A DNA stretch of 64,000 nt from Plantactinospora sp. BC1 (GTDB taxonomy: Bacteria > Actinomycetota > Actinomycetes > Mycobacteriales > Micromonosporaceae): positions 4,216,001 through 4,280,000 of the forward strand of contig NZ_CP028158.1 of NCBI RefSeq assembly GCF_003030345.1. Reading direction: 5' to 3'. A program made the translations under genes and the position numbers. Each line of letters opens with the position of its first letter. Positions within the stretch are counted from its first letter, which is position 1. The notes below the pieces were generated by a model. The model did no database searches, had not been told where the DNA came from, and saw only the letters and a list, made by a program, of their open reading frames with translations. This document shows positions 57,453 through 64,000 of this stretch, piece by piece.

Positions 57453-57626
57453 GCGGCGACGGGTCCGAAGCGGCTGACGGCGGGCCCGGTACAACCGGTC
57501 GACCCACCACATCAGACGGAACAGTCGCGGGCACGATGGTCGTCGTTGCCCGGCGGCGTATCGGGCGACGGCAACTACTCGCTAGGACTATCGACACTCC
57601 TCCCTGTACGCATCAACAATGACGCC

Positions 57627-60600
57627 GTGACAAGGAGTGAGCGCACGCGCTGGGTCATCGGCGGGTTGGTACTGGCGGCGATTCTGGTGGCGACCGCCGT
57701 CGTCTGGTGGCTGCGCGGCCGTGAGGTGGCCAGCGTGGTCGTCGGGGTCGGCAGCCTCCTCGCCGCGATCGTCGGTCTCGTCCCGCTGCTGGCCGGACGA
57801 TCCGCGCCCGCGGCGGGTGCCGCGCCGGAATCCGTCACGGTGATCCGGGCCGGCCTGCTCGGCCGGGTACGGCGGGTGCTGGTCCGGGCCGCCAGCGGAA
57901 GCCGGAACGAGGTCTCGGCCGGAGCGGGCGGCATCGTCGAGGACACCGGAGTCGAGAACCAGTCGGCACCGCCCCGGCAGTTCGGGCCAACCGGGCAGCT
58001 TGCGCCGGCTCCGACGGAACCGGCTGCGCTGGTCGGTACCCCGGCTCCTGCGCCACAGGACGGCGGCACGGTGCAGCCGAGCCAACCCGGCCGCCCCGTA
58101 GCGGCGACCGCTCCAACCGCATCGGCGGCCGTCTCACCGGCTGGTCCGGTGCGTGGTCGGCTGGTGCCGGCGGTGGATGGGGGTGCTCGTACCCCGCCAG
58201 GTGCCGGCGGCAGCCCGTCCGGCGTGGGGCTGGAAGCCCGGGTGGTCGACGGGATGGTGAGCCGGGACGTCCAGCTCGACCGGATCCTCGAAAAGATCCA
58301 CAGTGGCGAGACCGGGATCTTCGCGGTGCTCGGCGGGCACGGCATGGGCAAGTCGGCGTTCCTGCGGCAACTGCACGACCGGGTTGCCCGGGACGCGCCG
58401 GACGTCCTGCGACTGCCCGCGGAGGGGGCGATGCTCGTCGACAAGTACGGCCTCTCCGAATCGCTCAGTGGCCAGTACGGCGACGGTCTCACCCCGACCG
58501 CGGCGGGCCTGCTGCTGGAGCGGTCGTCGAACCTGCTCGGCAACCTGGTCAACGACCTTCTGCCCGAGTTCGGGCTGGCCGGGCCGGGCGGCGGGAACCG
58601 GCGGTTCGAGAGGTTCGTCCTGGCGATCGCGGCGGCGAAGACGGCCGGCGACCGTCCGGTGCAGGTCAAGAACGAACTCTCCGCCTTCGGCTTCGGGCGG
58701 ATGACGGACACCCGGATCGACGTCACCCTCACGGAGACCGCGGCCGCCATCGTCGACCGGGCCCGGAAGGCGCAGTGGCGGATCGACGAGGCGTTCATCG
58801 CGGACTGGCAGGCCTGGCTGAACGGCCGACGCGCCGTGGTGATCCTGGACGGGTTCGAGACACTCATCGACGACGCGGTGGGACAGTGGCTGGTCGGGCT
58901 CGCCTGGCGGCTGCCGAACACCCTCGTCGTCGTGCCGCTCATCCCCCGCGACTACGCCGAGCACGTCCGGAGCCTGGTGGACCCGAACCGCTCGGAGGAA
59001 CTGCCGCTGCTCTCCACCGGCGAGGTGTGGGAGTACCTGCGGCACCACCTGGGCGGCGGCGCGACCACGGAGCTGGCCCAGGCGGTGTACGACTTCACCG
59101 GCGGCCACCCGTCCGCCGTCGGGCTGGTGCACCGGCTCATCCAGGAGCGCGGCGCGGAAGCCCGGCAGGCCGATCAACTGCGTGGGATGCTGGCGCGCCT
59201 CTCCGCCGACGGCGGGCTGAACGTCGCCGGTCTGGTCGAGGCGATCCTCGGCCGTCGGCGGCGGGCGCTGCTGCGGGCGGTCGAGGTGGCCGCGCTGCTG
59301 AACTCCTTCGACCCGCCACTGCTGCAACGACTCCTGGAGACCGACGCGGAACCCGACGGGGGGCCGGGCGGTGCGGAGCGGGCGGCATCCGACGCGAGCA
59401 GTGTCATCGCGGAGTTCCAGCGGCTCGGCCTCCTCGACCGGGTCACCGACGGGACCCGGTTCCGGGTGCACGAGTTCATCCGTCCGGCCCTCGCCGCCCG
59501 GATGGCCCGGCTCTATCCGCAGCGGTGGACCCCGATCCACCGGGCCGCCGCGGCCCACTACTTCGAGCTGATCACCGAGTTCGAGGACAAGACCGACAAG
59601 GCGTACGGCTCCTGGTACAAGTACGAGGATCCGGTCTGGCAGGCGTACGAGACCGAGTGGCTCTACCACTGCGCCCAGCTTCCCGACGAGCGCTACCTGA
59701 CCCGTACCCGGTTCGTGCTCATCTTCATGGAAGCCTTCTGGTGGTGGGGGCTCTACGTCGACTTCCCCTTCTGCCACCACCTGCTGGAGAGCTGGGAGTC
59801 GGCGGCCCAGGACGACGACGACCGGAAGCTGCTGCGTCAACTGCACCGGTTCCAGCTCAACTACCTGCCCGGCCCCGACAAGCCAGCCGGTCCACACTGG
59901 ACGGAAGTGCGTAGGGCGCTGCGGGCGGTCCGCGAGGTCTGCGGGCTGCGCGGCGGCTGGCGGGACCCGCGGTTGCCGGCCGACGTCCAGGAGAGCCAGT
60001 TCCGCACCTCGCTCTACCTGCGACTCTTCGACGCGCACGCGCTCTGGTACGACGGCCGGCCGGAGCAGGCCGCCGAGGAGTACCGGAAGCTCGAACCGGA
60101 TTTCCTGGAGCTGGGCGACGACGTGATGACCGCCTGGTTCTACTACGAGTGGGGCGACATCGGGCTCTCCGCCGGTGATCCGGGCACGGCGGCGACCCGG
60201 GTCGGTCAGGCGCTGCGGCTGGCCGGGGAGATGGCCGACGGGCCGGAGGGCGAGGTCGACTCGGAGTTGCTGGCGAATTTGCACCGCTGCCTCGGTGACC
60301 TCTGCTGGCCGCGCGATCCGGTCACCGCCGCCACCGAGTACGGGCTCGCGGTCCGGCACGCCTTCCTGTTCCAGCGCACCGACAACGCCCTCGACCGCAG
60401 CGTCAACGCGCCCGACGAGTACACCCAGCGCTTCTACCAGGAGATCACGGACCGGGCCACCGCCAGGGCCCGCGAGTCGGCGGACCGGCCCGATCGGGAC
60501 GAGATCATGGCCGCCCTGGTCGCGCCGACCGGCGGTGCGGCGCCGGGCGACCTCCGGTCAGCGGTGCTGGCCGGACTCTTCCCACGCAACGCGCTCGATG

Positions 60601-60740
60601 CGGAACTGCATCTGCGGGAGTCGGAGTTCGCCGACTACTGGGGCGACGTGGTGGAGGGGTGGGACCTCGACATCCCCGCCGAACTGGAGCGGGCGATCAC
60701 CCTCGCCGACCAGATCGGCCCGGAGCAGCCGCCCGGATAG
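57627..60740 (+). CDS. Membrane-anchored STAND-like NTPase with helical C-terminus
   Basis: I choose the GTG at 57627 (1037 residues), just ahead of the membrane segments; an upstream TTG is possible. Two hydrophobic helices lie at about 10-28 and 36-56. A Pro/Ala-rich linker (about 110-200) follows. The NTPase has Walker A GGHGMGKS (236-243) and Walker B VVILDGFETL (404-413), followed by a winged-helix-like section (GTRFRVHEFIRPALAARMARL). Residues about 640-1037 are helical, TPR-like (ALWYDGRPEQAAEEYRKLEPDFLELGDD). No effector domain is evident, so signalling or defence roles are both possible. It converges on the operon of the GNAT-sigma protein. Confidence 0.85.
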   Translation: MTRSERTRWVIGGLVLAAILVATAVVWWLRGREVASVVVGVGSLLAAIVGLVPLLAGRSAPAAGAAPESVTVIRAGLLGRVRRVLVRAASGSRNEVSAGAGGIVEDTGVENQSAPPRQFGPTGQLAPAPTEPAALVGTPAPAPQDGGTVQPSQPGRPVAATAPTASAAVSPAGPVRGRLVPAVDGGARTPPGAGGSPSGVGLEARVVDGMVSRDVQLDRILEKIHSGETGIFAVLGGHGMGKSAFLRQLHDRVARDAPDVLRLPAEGAMLVDKYGLSESLSGQYGDGLTPTAAGLLLERSSNLLGNLVNDLLPEFGLAGPGGGNRRFERFVLAIAAAKTAGDRPVQVKNELSAFGFGRMTDTRIDVTLTETAAAIVDRARKAQWRIDEAFIADWQAWLNGRRAVVILDGFETLIDDAVGQWLVGLAWRLPNTLVVVPLIPRDYAEHVRSLVDPNRSEELPLLSTGEVWEYLRHHLGGGATTELAQAVYDFTGGHPSAVGLVHRLIQERGAEARQADQLRGMLARLSADGGLNVAGLVEAILGRRRRALLRAVEVAALLNSFDPPLLQRLLETDAEPDGGPGGAERAASDASSVIAEFQRLGLLDRVTDGTRFRVHEFIRPALAARMARLYPQRWTPIHRAAAAHYFELITEFEDKTDKAYGSWYKYEDPVWQAYETEWLYHCAQLPDERYLTRTRFVLIFMEAFWWWGLYVDFPFCHHLLESWESAAQDDDDRKLLRQLHRFQLNYLPGPDKPAGPHWTEVRRALRAVREVCGLRGGWRDPRLPADVQESQFRTSLYLRLFDAHALWYDGRPEQAAEEYRKLEPDFLELGDDVMTAWFYYEWGDIGLSAGDPGTAATRVGQALRLAGEMADGPEGEVDSELLANLHRCLGDLCWPRDPVTAATEYGLAVRHAFLFQRTDNALDRSVNAPDEYTQRFYQEITDRATARARESADRPDRDEIMAALVAPTGGAAPGDLRSAVLAGLFPRNALDAELHLRESEFADYWGDVVEGWDLDIPAELERAITLADQIGPEQPPG

Positions 60741-60799: not shown

Positions 60800-61447
60800 T
60801 CAGCCGGTCGGCAGCTCCAGCCGGTCGCTCAGCCACCGCACCTGCCACTCGCGCTCCACCTGGTAGCGATCGACGCCGACGGTCGGGGTGCGGGCCTCGG
60901 CGGCCCGCGCCGCGACGTAGCCGAGCGCGGCGACGGGATAGCTCTCCGTCATCTCGATCGCGTCCGCGAGGTAGCCGCAGTTCCGGGCGGCGGCGCTGCG
61001 GCCGCGCAGGGCCGCGCGTTCCTGCCGGTCCAGGGCGAGGGCGGCGAGTTCCGCGAGATCGACCGGCCCGTCCTCGGCCAGCCGCTCGGCGGCGGCGGCG
61101 AGTGGACCGTCGTCCAGCGCGGCACCGCACTCCTGCGCGGCGTGCCCGGCGATCCGGGCCAGGCAGGCGCGGACGAACTCCCGCCGGGCCTGCGCGTTCC
61201 AGCCGTCGACCTGGGCGCGGAGCCGAGCGCGTCCGGCGACCACCTGGCGCTCCAGTTCCAGCACCGGCCCGTCGACCTCCACCTCCCAGAGTTCGTCGTG
61301 AATCCAGTACGGCAGATCCGTGACCCGGCAGACGTGCAGCCCCTGCCGGCAGGGCACGATCGCCGGCTCGGAACGCCAGCCGGTCGACCAGGTCTGTCGG
61401 GAGAAGGGCCCGGACCGGCCGGCGGTGAGGAACTTGTAGTACCTCAC
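60800..61447 (-). CDS. Uncharacterised protein, DUF7666-like N-terminus
   Basis: The 215-residue protein starts at GTG overlapping the previous stop (GTGA), so it is translationally coupled to the zf-HC2 gene. The first 70 residues (MRYYKFLTAGRSGPFS, GWRSEPAIVPCRQGLHVCRVTDLPYWIHDELWEVEV) look like the small domain annotated as DUF7666, with the CRQGLHVC pair of Cys and a His. The remainder is helical and acidic, without a known motif. The operon suggests it is the sensor or output of the anti-sigma system. This is inference. Confidence 0.65.
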   Translation of the reverse strand: MRYYKFLTAGRSGPFSRQTWSTGWRSEPAIVPCRQGLHVCRVTDLPYWIHDELWEVEVDGPVLELERQVVAGRARLRAQVDGWNAQARREFVRACLARIAGHAAQECGAALDDGPLAAAAERLAEDGPVDLAELAALALDRQERAALRGRSAAARNCGYLADAIEMTESYPVAALGYVAARAAEARTPTVGVDRYQVEREWQVRWLSDRLELPTG

Positions 61448-61668
61448 GGCGTCTCCTCTCCCCGCGTCAGCAGGTGCTCCGGGGAGTGCGGTCCGGTCAG
61501 GCTCAGCAGCGCGGCCCGCAGGTCGTGCACCTTGCCGACGTAGGCCAGGCAGGGCGGGCAGACCAGCAGGTGCAGCTCGACCAGCTCCCGCTGCTCCGGG
61601 TCGAGCGCGCCGTCGAGCCAGTTGCCGACCAGCCGCACGGTCTGGTCACAGCGGAGATAACCGTCCAT
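61444..61668 (-). CDS. zf-HC2 putative anti-sigma factor
   Basis: The 74-residue protein is little more than a zinc-binding anti-sigma domain. CDQTVRLVGNWLDGALDPEQRELVELHLLVCPPCLAYVGKVHDL has the HxxxCxxC motif (His33, Cys37, Cys40). No transmembrane part is present, so it would be cytosolic, like RsrA-type anti-sigma factors. Its gene lies nine bases after the GNAT-sigma4 gene, the place where a sigma gene usually stands, and overlaps the next gene by four bases. Confidence 0.88.
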   Translation of the reverse strand: MDGYLRCDQTVRLVGNWLDGALDPEQRELVELHLLVCPPCLAYVGKVHDLRAALLSLTGPHSPEHLLTRGEETP

Positions 61669-61677
61669 CCGCCGGCC

Positions 61678-62919
61678 CTACCGGGCGCTCTCGTCCAGGA
61701 AGGCGACGACCTCCATGCGGGCCGCCTCCAGGATCCCGAGGTAGTGCTCCGGCGCCTGCCCGGTCAGTTCGACCGCCTCCGGCAGGGTCAGCCCGACCAC
61801 GTCGGAGAGGAGCAGGAGGAGCCGGGGCAGCGGCGGCAGGCGGCGTACCGCCCGTTCGAGCCGCTCCGGGGTCGTCACCTCGGCCCCCCAGCTCGGGGGC
61901 GTCTCCCGCCACCAGCCCGCCCACGGGTCGGCCTCGCCCGCGAACCAGTCGGCCAGCACCGAGGCGTCGCCCGGCTCGGCGGAGACGAAGACGAGCCCGT
62001 CGGCGGAGAGCCGCGCCAGGAACTCGGCGAGGACGGTACGGCGGGGCCGGGGAAGCTCCTCACCGGCCGCCATCCGGGCGAGTACCCGCTGCCACACCTC
62101 GTCCAGCAGCGCGACGCCCCGGTCGTCGACGGCGAGCAGCCGGGCGGCGACCGCCGTACCCGGATAGTCCCGCCGCAGCAGTTCGGCGTCGACCCGCAGC
62201 GGCGGCACCTCGGCGTACTGCTCGGGGGCCAGCAGGACCAGCGGGTCGGGCTCGTGGTCGAGCCGGGCCAGCAGTCCCGCGTACGCCATGTCCTCGGCCT
62301 CGTCGACCGCCTCCGAATCCGTGTAGTACTCGGTGACGAAGTCGCGCAGGGTCTGGCGGGGGAGCGTCTCGTCCCCGGTGGCGGCGAGCAGCAGCATCCC
62401 GCCCACCCGTTCGGTGCCGGGCCGGACCCGGGGCTGCACGAACGGGCTCGGCACCAGCCGGAACCCGGCCCGGCCGTAGAACCGCAGCCGCTTGTCCGGG
62501 TCGCCGTGCGGCCCGGCCGAGTGAAAGCGGGGGTCCTCGACCTCGGCGACCGCGACGACCGCGTCGGCCCGCTCCCGCCAGGTCGGCAGCACGCGCAGGA
62601 GCGTCGAGCCGATCCCGCCGCCGCGCTGGCCCGGCCGGACCGCGAGGTAGCTCAGCAGCAGCACCCGGGAGTCGGGGAAAGAGTCGGCGATCATCACGCC
62701 GACCGGTGTGCCGTCGGTGAGGGCCACCGCCGCGAACGTCGAGGGGTCGCCGGAGGCCATCCGGCCGGCGAGGCTCTCCGCCGTCTCCAGCTCGTCGGTG
62801 GGAAAGTTCGGTTCGAGAACCTCCTCGTACGCCCGCCGGAACAGGTCGGGATCGTACTCCGCCACGAGGTCGTGGACCTGGACGTGGCCACGGGGGGAGC
62901 CGACTGCCGGGGCGCTCAC
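61678..62919 (-). CDS. GNAT acetyltransferase fused to sigma region 4-like domain
   Basis: I choose the GTG at 62919 with GGAGG eight bases upstream (413 residues). The first 165 residues form a GNAT fold: LEPNFPTDELETAESLAG, VGVMIADSFPDSRVLLLSYLAVRPGQRGGGIGSTLLRVLP with the acetyl-CoA loop RPGQRGGGIGS, and RLRFYGRAGFRLV. A middle section (about 180-340) has no recognised family. The last 60 residues, LERAVRRLPPLPRLLLLLSDVVGLTLPEAVELTGQAPEHYLGILEAARMEVVAFL in outline, follow sigma-70 region 4, though region 2 is missing. The zf-HC2 gene directly downstream is the expected partner of a sigma factor. The fusion could be a sigma-like regulator or a relic used only for binding. Confidence 0.8.
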   Translation of the reverse strand: MSAPAVGSPRGHVQVHDLVAEYDPDLFRRAYEEVLEPNFPTDELETAESLAGRMASGDPSTFAAVALTDGTPVGVMIADSFPDSRVLLLSYLAVRPGQRGGGIGSTLLRVLPTWRERADAVVAVAEVEDPRFHSAGPHGDPDKRLRFYGRAGFRLVPSPFVQPRVRPGTERVGGMLLLAATGDETLPRQTLRDFVTEYYTDSEAVDEAEDMAYAGLLARLDHEPDPLVLLAPEQYAEVPPLRVDAELLRRDYPGTAVAARLLAVDDRGVALLDEVWQRVLARMAAGEELPRPRRTVLAEFLARLSADGLVFVSAEPGDASVLADWFAGEADPWAGWWRETPPSWGAEVTTPERLERAVRRLPPLPRLLLLLSDVVGLTLPEAVELTGQAPEHYLGILEAARMEVVAFLDESAR

Positions 62920-62982: not shown

Positions 62983-64000
62983 CTAGGAGCGGTAGCGGCC
63001 GCTCTCCAGGGACCAGTCCATGGTGCCGCGCACCGAGTTGGCCAGCCCGTCCAGGTACTGCCGCAGCGGCCCGTCCAGCGCCGGGCCGAACGACGGTACG
63101 GCGGCGCGCAGCTCGACGAAGTGCCGCATGCTCTGCTGCCACCGCCGGACGACCGCCTCGATCGCCGCCTCGACTGGAATCCCCTCCTCCCGGGCCACCG
63201 CCAGCACCAGGTTGTGCCCGCCGGAGGTGGCCGCGTCCCGTTCCAGCGACAGCAGGTCGTTGAACCAGGAGAGCAGGTCGTTGGCGGTGTCGGCGACGGC
63301 GCGTACCGCCGGGTGGTGGTAGACGGCGTCCGGCACCCGTTGCCCGGTGGCGAACTCGATCAGGGCGTACGAGACGTACGCGGCGGAGGTCGCCCGGCGC
63401 AGCGGCACGTACTCGGCGACGCCGGGCAGCCGCCCGTTCGCCTTGTTGGTCGCCTCGGTGACCACGCCGTCCAGGTGGTGCGCCACCGCGTCGACGAAAC
63501 GGTCCCGCCAGGCCGCCGGCATCCGGTGGCTCGGGACCTGCCAGGCGTCGGCGAGCATCCGCCGGAGCGGTCCGTCGAACGCCTCGGAGCGGGGTGCCGG
63601 CCGGTTCGCCGCCCGGCTCTGTGCCGGGGTGGTCAGCCGGGTCGCCGGCTGGTTGGCGGCCCGGGGAGCGGGTGTCGGGGTGGATGGCTGCTGCCCGGGG
63701 CGCGGCTGCGGGGCGGTCGCCGGCTGCTGACGGGTCTGCCGGGGTTGCCCCGGAGCGGCGGTCGGCTGCTGTGCCGGGCGGGACTGGGCGGCGCCCGGGT
63801 GCCCCGCCCGGCCCGGCCTGCCTACGCACTCGACCGCCGGGTTCCCGGGTCCGGCGGTGGTCGGCACCGGCCGCCCGGTGCCGACCGGTGGCCTCGGCTG
63901 TGCCTGCCGGGCTGCCGCTGCGGCCGTTGGCGGTGCGGCCGGTGCCGCTGGTGCCGGTGCCGGCGCGGCCCGGAGCAGCCGCAGCACCCCGTCGCAGAGC
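62983..64000 (-). CDS. Terpene synthase family protein, 5' end off the window
   Basis: The visible C-terminal 339 codons hold a class I terpene synthase end. MPAAWRDRFVDAVAHHLDGVVTEATNK, GRLPGVAEYVPLRRATS and WFNDLLSLERD provide the helix with the NSE-type Mg-binding motif (final residue Asp in place of Glu). The stretch before it, about 130 residues of Pro, Ala, Gln and Arg, is disordered and sits where normal enzymes continue directly from the DDxxD half. The frame runs past the edge (LCDG before the first visible Met), so the DDxxD part should lie beyond 64000. It would cyclise a prenyl diphosphate in the cytoplasm; the product is unknown. Confidence 0.83.
   Translation of the reverse strand, partial: LCDGVLRLLRAAPAPAPAAPAAPPTAAAAARQAQPRPPVGTGRPVPTTAGPGNPAVECVGRPGRAGHPGAAQSRPAQQPTAAPGQPRQTRQQPATAPQPRPGQQPSTPTPAPRAANQPATRLTTPAQSRAANRPAPRSEAFDGPLRRMLADAWQVPSHRMPAAWRDRFVDAVAHHLDGVVTEATNKANGRLPGVAEYVPLRRATSAAYVSYALIEFATGQRVPDAVYHHPAVRAVADTANDLLSWFNDLLSLERDAATSGGHNLVLAVAREEGIPVEAAIEAVVRRWQQSMRHFVELRAAVPSFGPALDGPLRQYLDGLANSVRGTMDWSLESGRYRS

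Follow-up and report, generated by a model that had tools for sequence, protein, structure and literature searches.

Why should an acetyltransferase end in what looks like a piece of a sigma factor, and why should the next gene encode an anti-sigma protein? The question is raised by a locus of Plantactinospora sp. BC1 (Micromonosporaceae), lying in a stretch of 64,000 nucleotides (contig NZ_CP028158.1, positions 4,216,001 to 4,280,000; hereafter the window, from whose first letter all positions are counted). Here, three tightly packed genes on the minus strand (60800-62919) encode a 413-aa fusion of a GNAT acetyltransferase to a sigma-like segment, a 74-aa zf-HC2 zinc protein, and a 215-aa protein, P0003. 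A preliminary description of this DNA had placed the three-gene coupled operon correctly, and both its GNAT and its zf-HC2 assignments lie above the Pfam cut-offs; however, it stopped short of a convergent gene for a STAND-like nucleoside triphosphatase (NTPase), which belongs to the locus, as its conservation beside the operon indicates. The fusion is not a product of chance, because the same fusion and gene order recur in four other genomes of the family (G026, G314, G323, and G243). We propose, as a reading with a roughly even chance of being right, that a sigma/anti-sigma pair no longer selects promoters but serves a GNAT-NTPase unit as a switch at the protein level.

The preliminary description had seen sigma region 4 without region 2, which the full-length alignment and the structure model rule out. 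Residues 245-413 of the fusion correspond, on well-supported evidence from alignment and modelling, to a whole extracytoplasmic function (ECF) sigma factor with sigma2, linker, and sigma4 (Table 1); that region 2 is present follows from the alignment, the model, and the PDB comparison taken together. In a tblastn search with the fusion, genomes of the family yielded two complete ECF sigma factors that align with residues 253-410 (E 1.6e-7 and 4e-6), and the alignment spanned region 2.2, the linker (DPWAGWWRETPPSW vs DPYPGHWRSSPPAW), and region 4. The linker motif was found in 5/5 fusions, in one of them as EPWAGWW. An AlphaFold2 model of residues 232-413 has three helices in the sigma2-like part and four in sigma4, with an unstructured linker between them. 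Its region 4 superposes on that of SigR (1.7 Å over 65 residues), in keeping with the sigma-4 fold that the preliminary description had assigned to the C-terminal segment. In the PDB, the top matches of Foldseek were ECF sigma factors aligned along the full segment, and PhyR also ranked with the best. When compared by VIA-align, whole ECF factors scored Z 12.6 to 10.6 (RpoE-NepR, Z 12.6, 3.6 Å, 136 residues; SigW bound to RsiW, Z 11.9, 3.4 Å, 132 residues) and PhyR-NepR scored Z 11.0 (4.0 Å, 119 residues), the top value staying under the Z of about 13 that helical bundles can reach by chance according to the tool's caution line; the weight of this result lies in the fact that sigma factors or PhyR fill the top rows. 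A profile that included canonical ECF factors also matched ECF factors and PhyR among PDB sequences, partly by construction. The chance level of Z weighs against the assignment, as do the modest confidence of the model (mean predicted local distance difference test score, pLDDT, 68.9, below 50 in the linker; five sequences only), the single Foldseek match with E under 0.001, and a search of PDB sequences with the window's sigma segment alone, in which no match was a sigma factor and the best (E 0.61) was an unrelated protein.

Both DNA-contacting regions of this sigma part, which we call the pseudo-sigma, are degraded. Region 2 appears too degenerate for Pfam: Sigma70_r2 matched 8/8 canonical relatives and, with E up to 1 allowed, 0/10 pseudo-sigmas (of which L047 has an incomplete start). 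The segment covering regions 2.3-2.4, which is 4 residues longer in the canonical ECF factors, has a net charge of -2 to +1 in six pseudo-sigmas vs +5 to +7 in five canonical factors; the canonical relatives read SLRTWVYRI...AK at this place, and the six pseudo-sigmas have neither the tryptophan of SLRTW nor the basic run. Net charge in region 4.2 is -7 to -3 in pseudo-sigmas vs 0 to +2 in canonical factors, and Sigma70_r4_2 reaches 19.0-20.9 bits in the window's fusion, under its cut-off of 25.7. The degradation is uneven among loci; the Frankia form L049 and G323 pass the same cut-off with 29.7 and 26.5 bits, which tells against a general loss. Judging from these sequences, the pseudo-sigma has probably lost DNA binding and kept its fold. 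It is likely unable to direct a promoter because both DNA-contacting regions are degraded; the preliminary description had reached the same likely outcome from a mistaken premise, namely that region 4 stands alone and region 2 is missing. An ECF factor that still works despite strong divergence, carries the acetyltransferase at its N-terminus, is restrained by an ordinary zinc anti-sigma protein, and perhaps regulates the convergent NTPase gene would account for the complete sigma2-sigma4 layout with a zf-HC2 partner and for the two forms above the Sigma70_r4_2 cut-off. With Sigma70_r2 absent throughout and the basic charge lost in regions 2.3-2.4 and 4.2, we give this explanation little credence.

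The sigma part appears to be under purifying selection and not to be drifting freely. In rough estimates of the ratio of nonsynonymous to synonymous substitution rates (dN/dS; simple Nei-Gojobori method, GC-rich genes, dS 0.40 to 1.28, five pairs sharing genomes), all 35 segment comparisons gave values below 1, and the sigma2-like segment had the lowest value in 3/5 genome pairs (G314 vs G243, for example, gave 0.14 in this segment and 0.29 in the GNAT). One pair, G000 vs G026, comes close to neutrality, its ratio reaching 0.87 for the sigma4-like part and 0.89 for the hinge, which counts against strong constraint there. Such values close to 0.9, the lost DNA-binding residues, and the disappearance of the whole cassette from one genome (G343, see below) are what one might expect if the sigma part were a decaying remnant, the useless leftover of a dead sigma factor fused by accident. 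We find this hardly credible in view of ratios below 1 in every comparison, with the minimum in the sigma2-like part in 3/5 pairs, and of pseudo-sigmas in at least three families, accompanied by zf-HC2 in 10/10 loci.

If the pseudo-sigma is not there for DNA, the adjoining zinc protein is its candidate partner. P0002 matches Pfam zf-HC2 with 42.9 bits (cut-off 22.2) and carries the zinc-ligand motif C7 ... H33-x3-C37-x2-C40, which is kept in all 11 aligned rows; the RsrA model gave 28.3 bits, under its cut-off of 62.5, and the search against PDB sequences gave RsiW at E 0.72. The zf-HC2 gene lies directly upstream of the P0003 gene in 13/13 distinct loci, as counted after apparent duplicates had been merged by matching contigs, coordinates, and sequences. 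Because P0003 served to find the loci outside the family, this linkage informs on zf-HC2 and the sigma part and not on P0003, whose presence in the 13 loci is no independent evidence and to that extent takes something from the case. In the Frankia genome G688, a single reading frame of 359 aa encodes both pseudo-sigma and anti-sigma protein, recognizable as a Sigma70_r4_2-like and a zf-HC2 segment. From the gene order and this second kind of fusion, we infer that the zf-HC2 protein binds the pseudo-sigma, and the earlier suggestion that the fusion might be controlled by the anti-sigma protein fits these sequence data, including the intact zinc motif. The two proteins resemble SigW-RsiW, an ECF factor and its zf-HC2 anti-sigma protein, in two-protein layout, gene order, fold, and zinc ligand pattern, and are unlike that pair in their degraded DNA-contacting sigma parts, the N-terminal acetyltransferase, and the P0003 and NTPase genes in the locus. 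SigR-RsrA is another pair of an ECF factor and a zf-HC2 anti-sigma protein.

A degenerate sigma domain attached to another protein recalls PhyR, an alphaproteobacterial response regulator. According to the excerpted text of PMC8103513, PhyR has a correct ECF structure in which the regions for promoter and polymerase have degenerated, and it titrates NepR from EcfG. The Plantactinospora fusion is like PhyR in that a complete but degenerate ECF-like sigma domain is joined to a different domain, with an anti-sigma protein in the system. It is unlike PhyR in that a GNAT stands where PhyR has a receiver domain that a histidine kinase phosphorylates, the neighbouring anti-sigma protein is zf-HC2 and not NepR, the hosts are actinomycetes, and the locus holds an NTPase and a third protein instead of a working ECF factor of the parental kind. 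The main rival to a local switch is therefore PhyR-like titration, in which the pseudo-sigma would act as a decoy that competes for the zf-HC2 protein and frees a true ECF factor encoded elsewhere, the GNAT setting the availability of the decoy as the receiver domain does in PhyR. Besides the shared kind of degenerate domain on a regulatory partner and the PhyR structures among the best matches, PF22233, the Pfam model of the PhyR sigma-like domain, outscores Sigma70_r4_2 in 3/5 fusions (8e-6, 1.3e-4, and 0.0025, below its cut-off). These scores also fit the loss of DNA binding that we assume for the pseudo-sigma. The window's own segment has Sigma70_r4_2 as its best Pfam model and no PhyR match, and the PhyR models match canonical relatives weakly too, two points that tell against the pseudo-sigma reading; PF22233 is not the best model in G323 either. 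As to the freed factor, a query with a canonical ECF factor of the parental kind found no such factor in the stretches around the fusions, and the eight genomes with the system, searched with this one query, yielded no close relative of that ECF subgroup (identities of 32-41% in five genomes; none at E 1e-10 in G323, G546, and G393). The fused pseudo-sigma and zf-HC2 of G688 also stand against titration. Titration is on these grounds unlikely, but an ECF factor from another subgroup may be the one set free.

The sigma segment and P0003 define a narrow distribution. Searches with the sigma segment found six genomes with the system among 354 of the family and otherwise weak matches to other genes, which were used only as examples of canonical ECF factors (G091, G106, G204, and G021 were left out); P0003 was present in the same six (6/354). 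One of the weak matches, from G077, had brought in a locus (L041) with an in-frame stop codon in the match and no sigma gene to be seen. P0003 gave eight matches among 394 genomes of the class, including the window's own and four other strong ones, and four among 396 genomes of the phylum, including the window's own and two other strong ones; G630, G426, and G607 in the class and G848 in the phylum were left out of the P0003 counts as chance (E about 1e-3). Six congeners that were searched contained neither the sigma segment nor P0003. A collection of named genomes provided five loci, from a metagenome-assembled genome contig matching G061, Candidatus Frankia meridionalis, Actinomadura meyerae, Frankia sp. 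CIT1, and Candidatus Frankia californiensis. These whole-genome searches score few candidates per genome (two for the NTPase), and distant relatives can be missed.

In total, 10 pseudo-sigma loci were recognized in at least three actinomycete families, all with GNAT, zf-HC2, and P0003, so that the recurrence in other actinomycetes by which the preliminary description proposed to check the design is borne out. The GNAT adjoins the pseudo-sigma in 10/10 loci: the two are fused in five genomes, the GNAT gene lies directly upstream of a separate pseudo-sigma gene in Actinomadura and Frankia, and G061 has a separate sigma-like gene with the GNAT divergent. The NTPase was found in 9/10 of these loci, the contig of the tenth (L049) ending at P0003; in G688 it is on another contig, which begins inside P0003. 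Three further loci, from other Actinomycetota (G843, G790, and G745), have a canonical ECF factor, then zf-HC2, then P0003. They share with the window the families of the anti-sigma protein and the third gene as well as the gene order, and differ in that their ECF factor is normal and the sigma of the window degenerate; neither GNAT nor NTPase matched in the stretches fetched from G843 (18.0 kb), G790 (5.2 kb, a whole short contig), and G745 (14.0 kb, beginning just before the ECF gene). Because of these three loci, ECF factor, zf-HC2, and P0003 are probably an older module from which the pseudo-sigma arose. This descent has support without being certain: the sigma tree agrees with it, showing a canonical clade at 100/100, and the weak split between pseudo-sigmas and canonical factors (74/81 in the sigma tree and 60/96 in the P0003 tree) is a mark against it. 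Canonical ECF factors of the parental type have recurrent gene neighbourhoods of their own, with a small SnoaL-like protein beside them (by eye; L039, L040, L043, and L044), an FMN_red-type reductase (by Pfam in L039, by eye also in L040 and L069), or a lactonase-like protein (by Pfam in L069, by eye also in L043, L044, and L068).

The other half of the locus is the GNAT with its NTPase. P0005 consists of hydrophobic N-terminal segments, a P-loop, and a long C-terminal part. Its AAA_16 score of 23.3 bits is under the cut-off of 32.6, which the Actinomadura orthologue passes with 34.5; that orthologue also has TPR_12 at 26.0, under the cut-off of 30.1, and PDB sequences gave no match to P0005 at E up to 1. 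The NTPase occurs in 9/354 genomes of the family, with a GNAT of this subfamily in the same cluster in 9/9. Three of the nine (G007, G187, and G343) have no pseudo-sigma, zf-HC2, or P0003 in the NTPase cluster. The G343 GNAT falls within the fusion GNATs as sister to that of G243 (support 99/98), it matches the five fusions as far as residues 237-246, where the fusion junction lies, and the rest of the genome yielded no sigma part and no P0003. Since the GNAT is nested and the match stops at the junction, pseudo-sigma, zf-HC2, and P0003 were lost together from G343 while GNAT and NTPase were kept; this divides the locus into a core of GNAT and NTPase and a regulatory cassette that can be removed. 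The same genome goes against an indispensable switch, as it can evidently do without the cassette. The three clusters without a sigma part are also hard to reconcile with an RNA-polymerase-directed acetyltransferase, an idea close to that of the preliminary description, whereby the sigma2-like part would bind core polymerase without being able to open promoters and so bring the GNAT to it. The region 2.2-like stretch does keep the canonical ECF pattern (DEVWQRVL vs QEAWLGVL), as such binding would lead one to expect. No link of the locus to polymerase was found in this analysis, and we regard this explanation as very unlikely. Nor did the analysis give support to the acetylation of transcription proteins that the preliminary description had suggested. 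Close to the NTPase, we observed by eye a membrane-segment protein that has its own overlapping or adjacent gene before the NTPase in Actinomadura, G007, and G187 (L048:11135-11791, L072:8815-9303, and L100:6041-6436), and is part of the NTPase in the window (57546-58200) and in the genomes with the fusion, a second gene fusion in these loci.

The switch that we favour could work as follows. The pseudo-sigma, the zinc anti-sigma protein, and P0003 would have come together from an ordinary ECF-antisigma-P0003 transcription module, and the pseudo-sigma would have been joined to a GNAT of a subfamily also found clustered with a STAND-like NTPase without any pseudo-sigma. The zf-HC2 protein, presumably with bound zinc, would clamp the pseudo-sigma as anti-sigma proteins clamp sigma factors, and thereby hold or block the attached acetyltransferase. 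A signal (redox, metal, or ligand), read by the zinc protein or by P0003, might open the clamp, and the freed acetyltransferase could then act on the NTPase or on the target of the NTPase. A bolder version, which we hold to be somewhat less probable than an even chance, is that the pair has left transcription altogether and that its clamp gates an acetyltransferase controlling a membrane-linked STAND-like NTPase, i.e., a signalling or defence unit made from transcription parts. The loci would then represent its stages, with the same standing: a working ECF factor, a separate pseudo-sigma gene, a pseudo-sigma fused to GNAT, one fused to the anti-sigma protein, and one deleted.

The coordinates are collected in Table 1. 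Membership of P0001 in the GNAT family rests on the profile above its cut-off and on the acetyl-CoA loop; the loop has the form R/Q-x-x-G-x-G/A, which we take to be that of GNAT enzymes. Stand-alone GNATs of the subfamily align up to about residue 240 of the fusion. Some of them (L006, L015, L004, and L008) adjoin a protein of ~420-490 aa with no convincing Pfam match; a place in CATRA-type conflict systems was considered and dropped, as neither Pfam matches of the neighbours nor a literature search supported it. Several genomes of the family (L072, L076, L099, L035, and L037) have the GNAT, fused or not, seemingly at the same chromosomal place, near a gene for a small protein with a C-x4-C start and in some cases also near what is presumably a WhiB-like gene; the GNAT may be old at that place.

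P0003 had no Pfam match above threshold. DUF7666 matched only its Actinomadura orthologue (16.8 bits, cut-off 27) and not the window's protein. The model of P0003 (pLDDT 87.2) predicts a beta-rich N-terminal and a helical C-terminal part and had no PDB match at E 0.001 or better; the P0003 profile gave as its best match among PDB sequences ribosomal protein L18, at E 0.2. DUF416 proteins (Z 8.2) were rejected as its fold, since by the tool's note such a score may reflect merely a common helical arrangement. Identity with a known defence system was likewise rejected, as neither PADLOC (P0001-P0004 without match at E up to 1; P0005 matching BrxD at E 0.02 only) nor PHROGs (only P0003 at E 0.31 and P0005 at E 2.3) gave a convincing match. 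Directly upstream of the fusion and on the same strand lies a terpene synthase family 2 gene (62983-64000; Terpene_syn_C_2, 137.8 bits; also L045:2983-4944) with a Pro/Ala/Gln-rich insertion of roughly 110 residues between its DDACD part and its C-terminal part. A functional link of this gene to the operon was dropped because the upstream genes differ in other loci.

Table 1. Features of the GNAT-pseudo-sigma locus, in positions of the window; residue numbers are those of the fusion protein.
Feature	Position	Strand	Basis or remark
GNAT-sigma fusion (P0001)	62919-61678	-	413 aa
GNAT acetyltransferase domain, residues 1-190	62350..62919	-	Pfam Acetyltransf_1, 32.2 bits, cut-off 20.7
Acetyl-CoA loop R-x-x-G-x-G (R99-G104)	62608-62625	-	present in fusion sequences
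Hinge, residues 191-244	62188..62349	-	part of the GNAT subfamily (stand-alone GNATs have it too); ends at the fusion junction
Degenerate sigma2-like domain, residues 245-311	61987..62187	-	alignment with canonical ECF factors; model and PDB matches; charge
Sigma2-sigma4 linker, DPWAGWW...PPxW motif, residues 312-350	61870..61986	-	aligns with DPYPGHW...PPAW of canonical ECF factors; low model confidence
Degenerate sigma4-like domain, residues 351-413 and stop codon	61678..61869	-	Sigma70_r4_2; SigR superposition; charge
zf-HC2 zinc anti-sigma protein (P0002)	61668-61444	-	74 aa; 9 bp gap after the fusion gene
P0003	61447-60800	-	215 aa; 4 bp overlap with the zf-HC2 gene
STAND-like NTPase (P0005)	57546-60740	+	convergent with the operon; start codon uncertain

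How far is such a design already described? Fused-domain ECF factors are familiar: the portion of PMC8999054 consulted lists ECF41 and SigJ with SnoaL_2 and ECF36 with a fused anti-sigma domain. The window's fusion is like them in having an extra regulatory domain in the sigma polypeptide, and unlike them in that those are treated as transcription-active sigma factors, with no acetyltransferase mentioned (0 occurrences of 'acetyl' in that portion of PMC8999054). Among the matches listed by searches of the open-access literature, judged by titles and abstract openings, there was no ECF/anti-sigma pair with a GNAT or other acetyltransferase attached to it or encoded beside it. Within these searches, the remark in the preliminary description that no system of this design was known to it stands for the whole arrangement, but not for its principle, a degenerate sigma domain on another protein being known from PhyR (PMC8103513, in excerpt). 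If our reading is true, the locus is a separate, actinomycete case of sigma mimicry in which the partner domain is an enzyme and the anti-sigma protein is of the zinc type, and its relatives form a series that begins with a working sigma factor and ends with a docking module. The labels 'sigma region 4' or zf-HC2 in a genome, accordingly, need not mean transcription.

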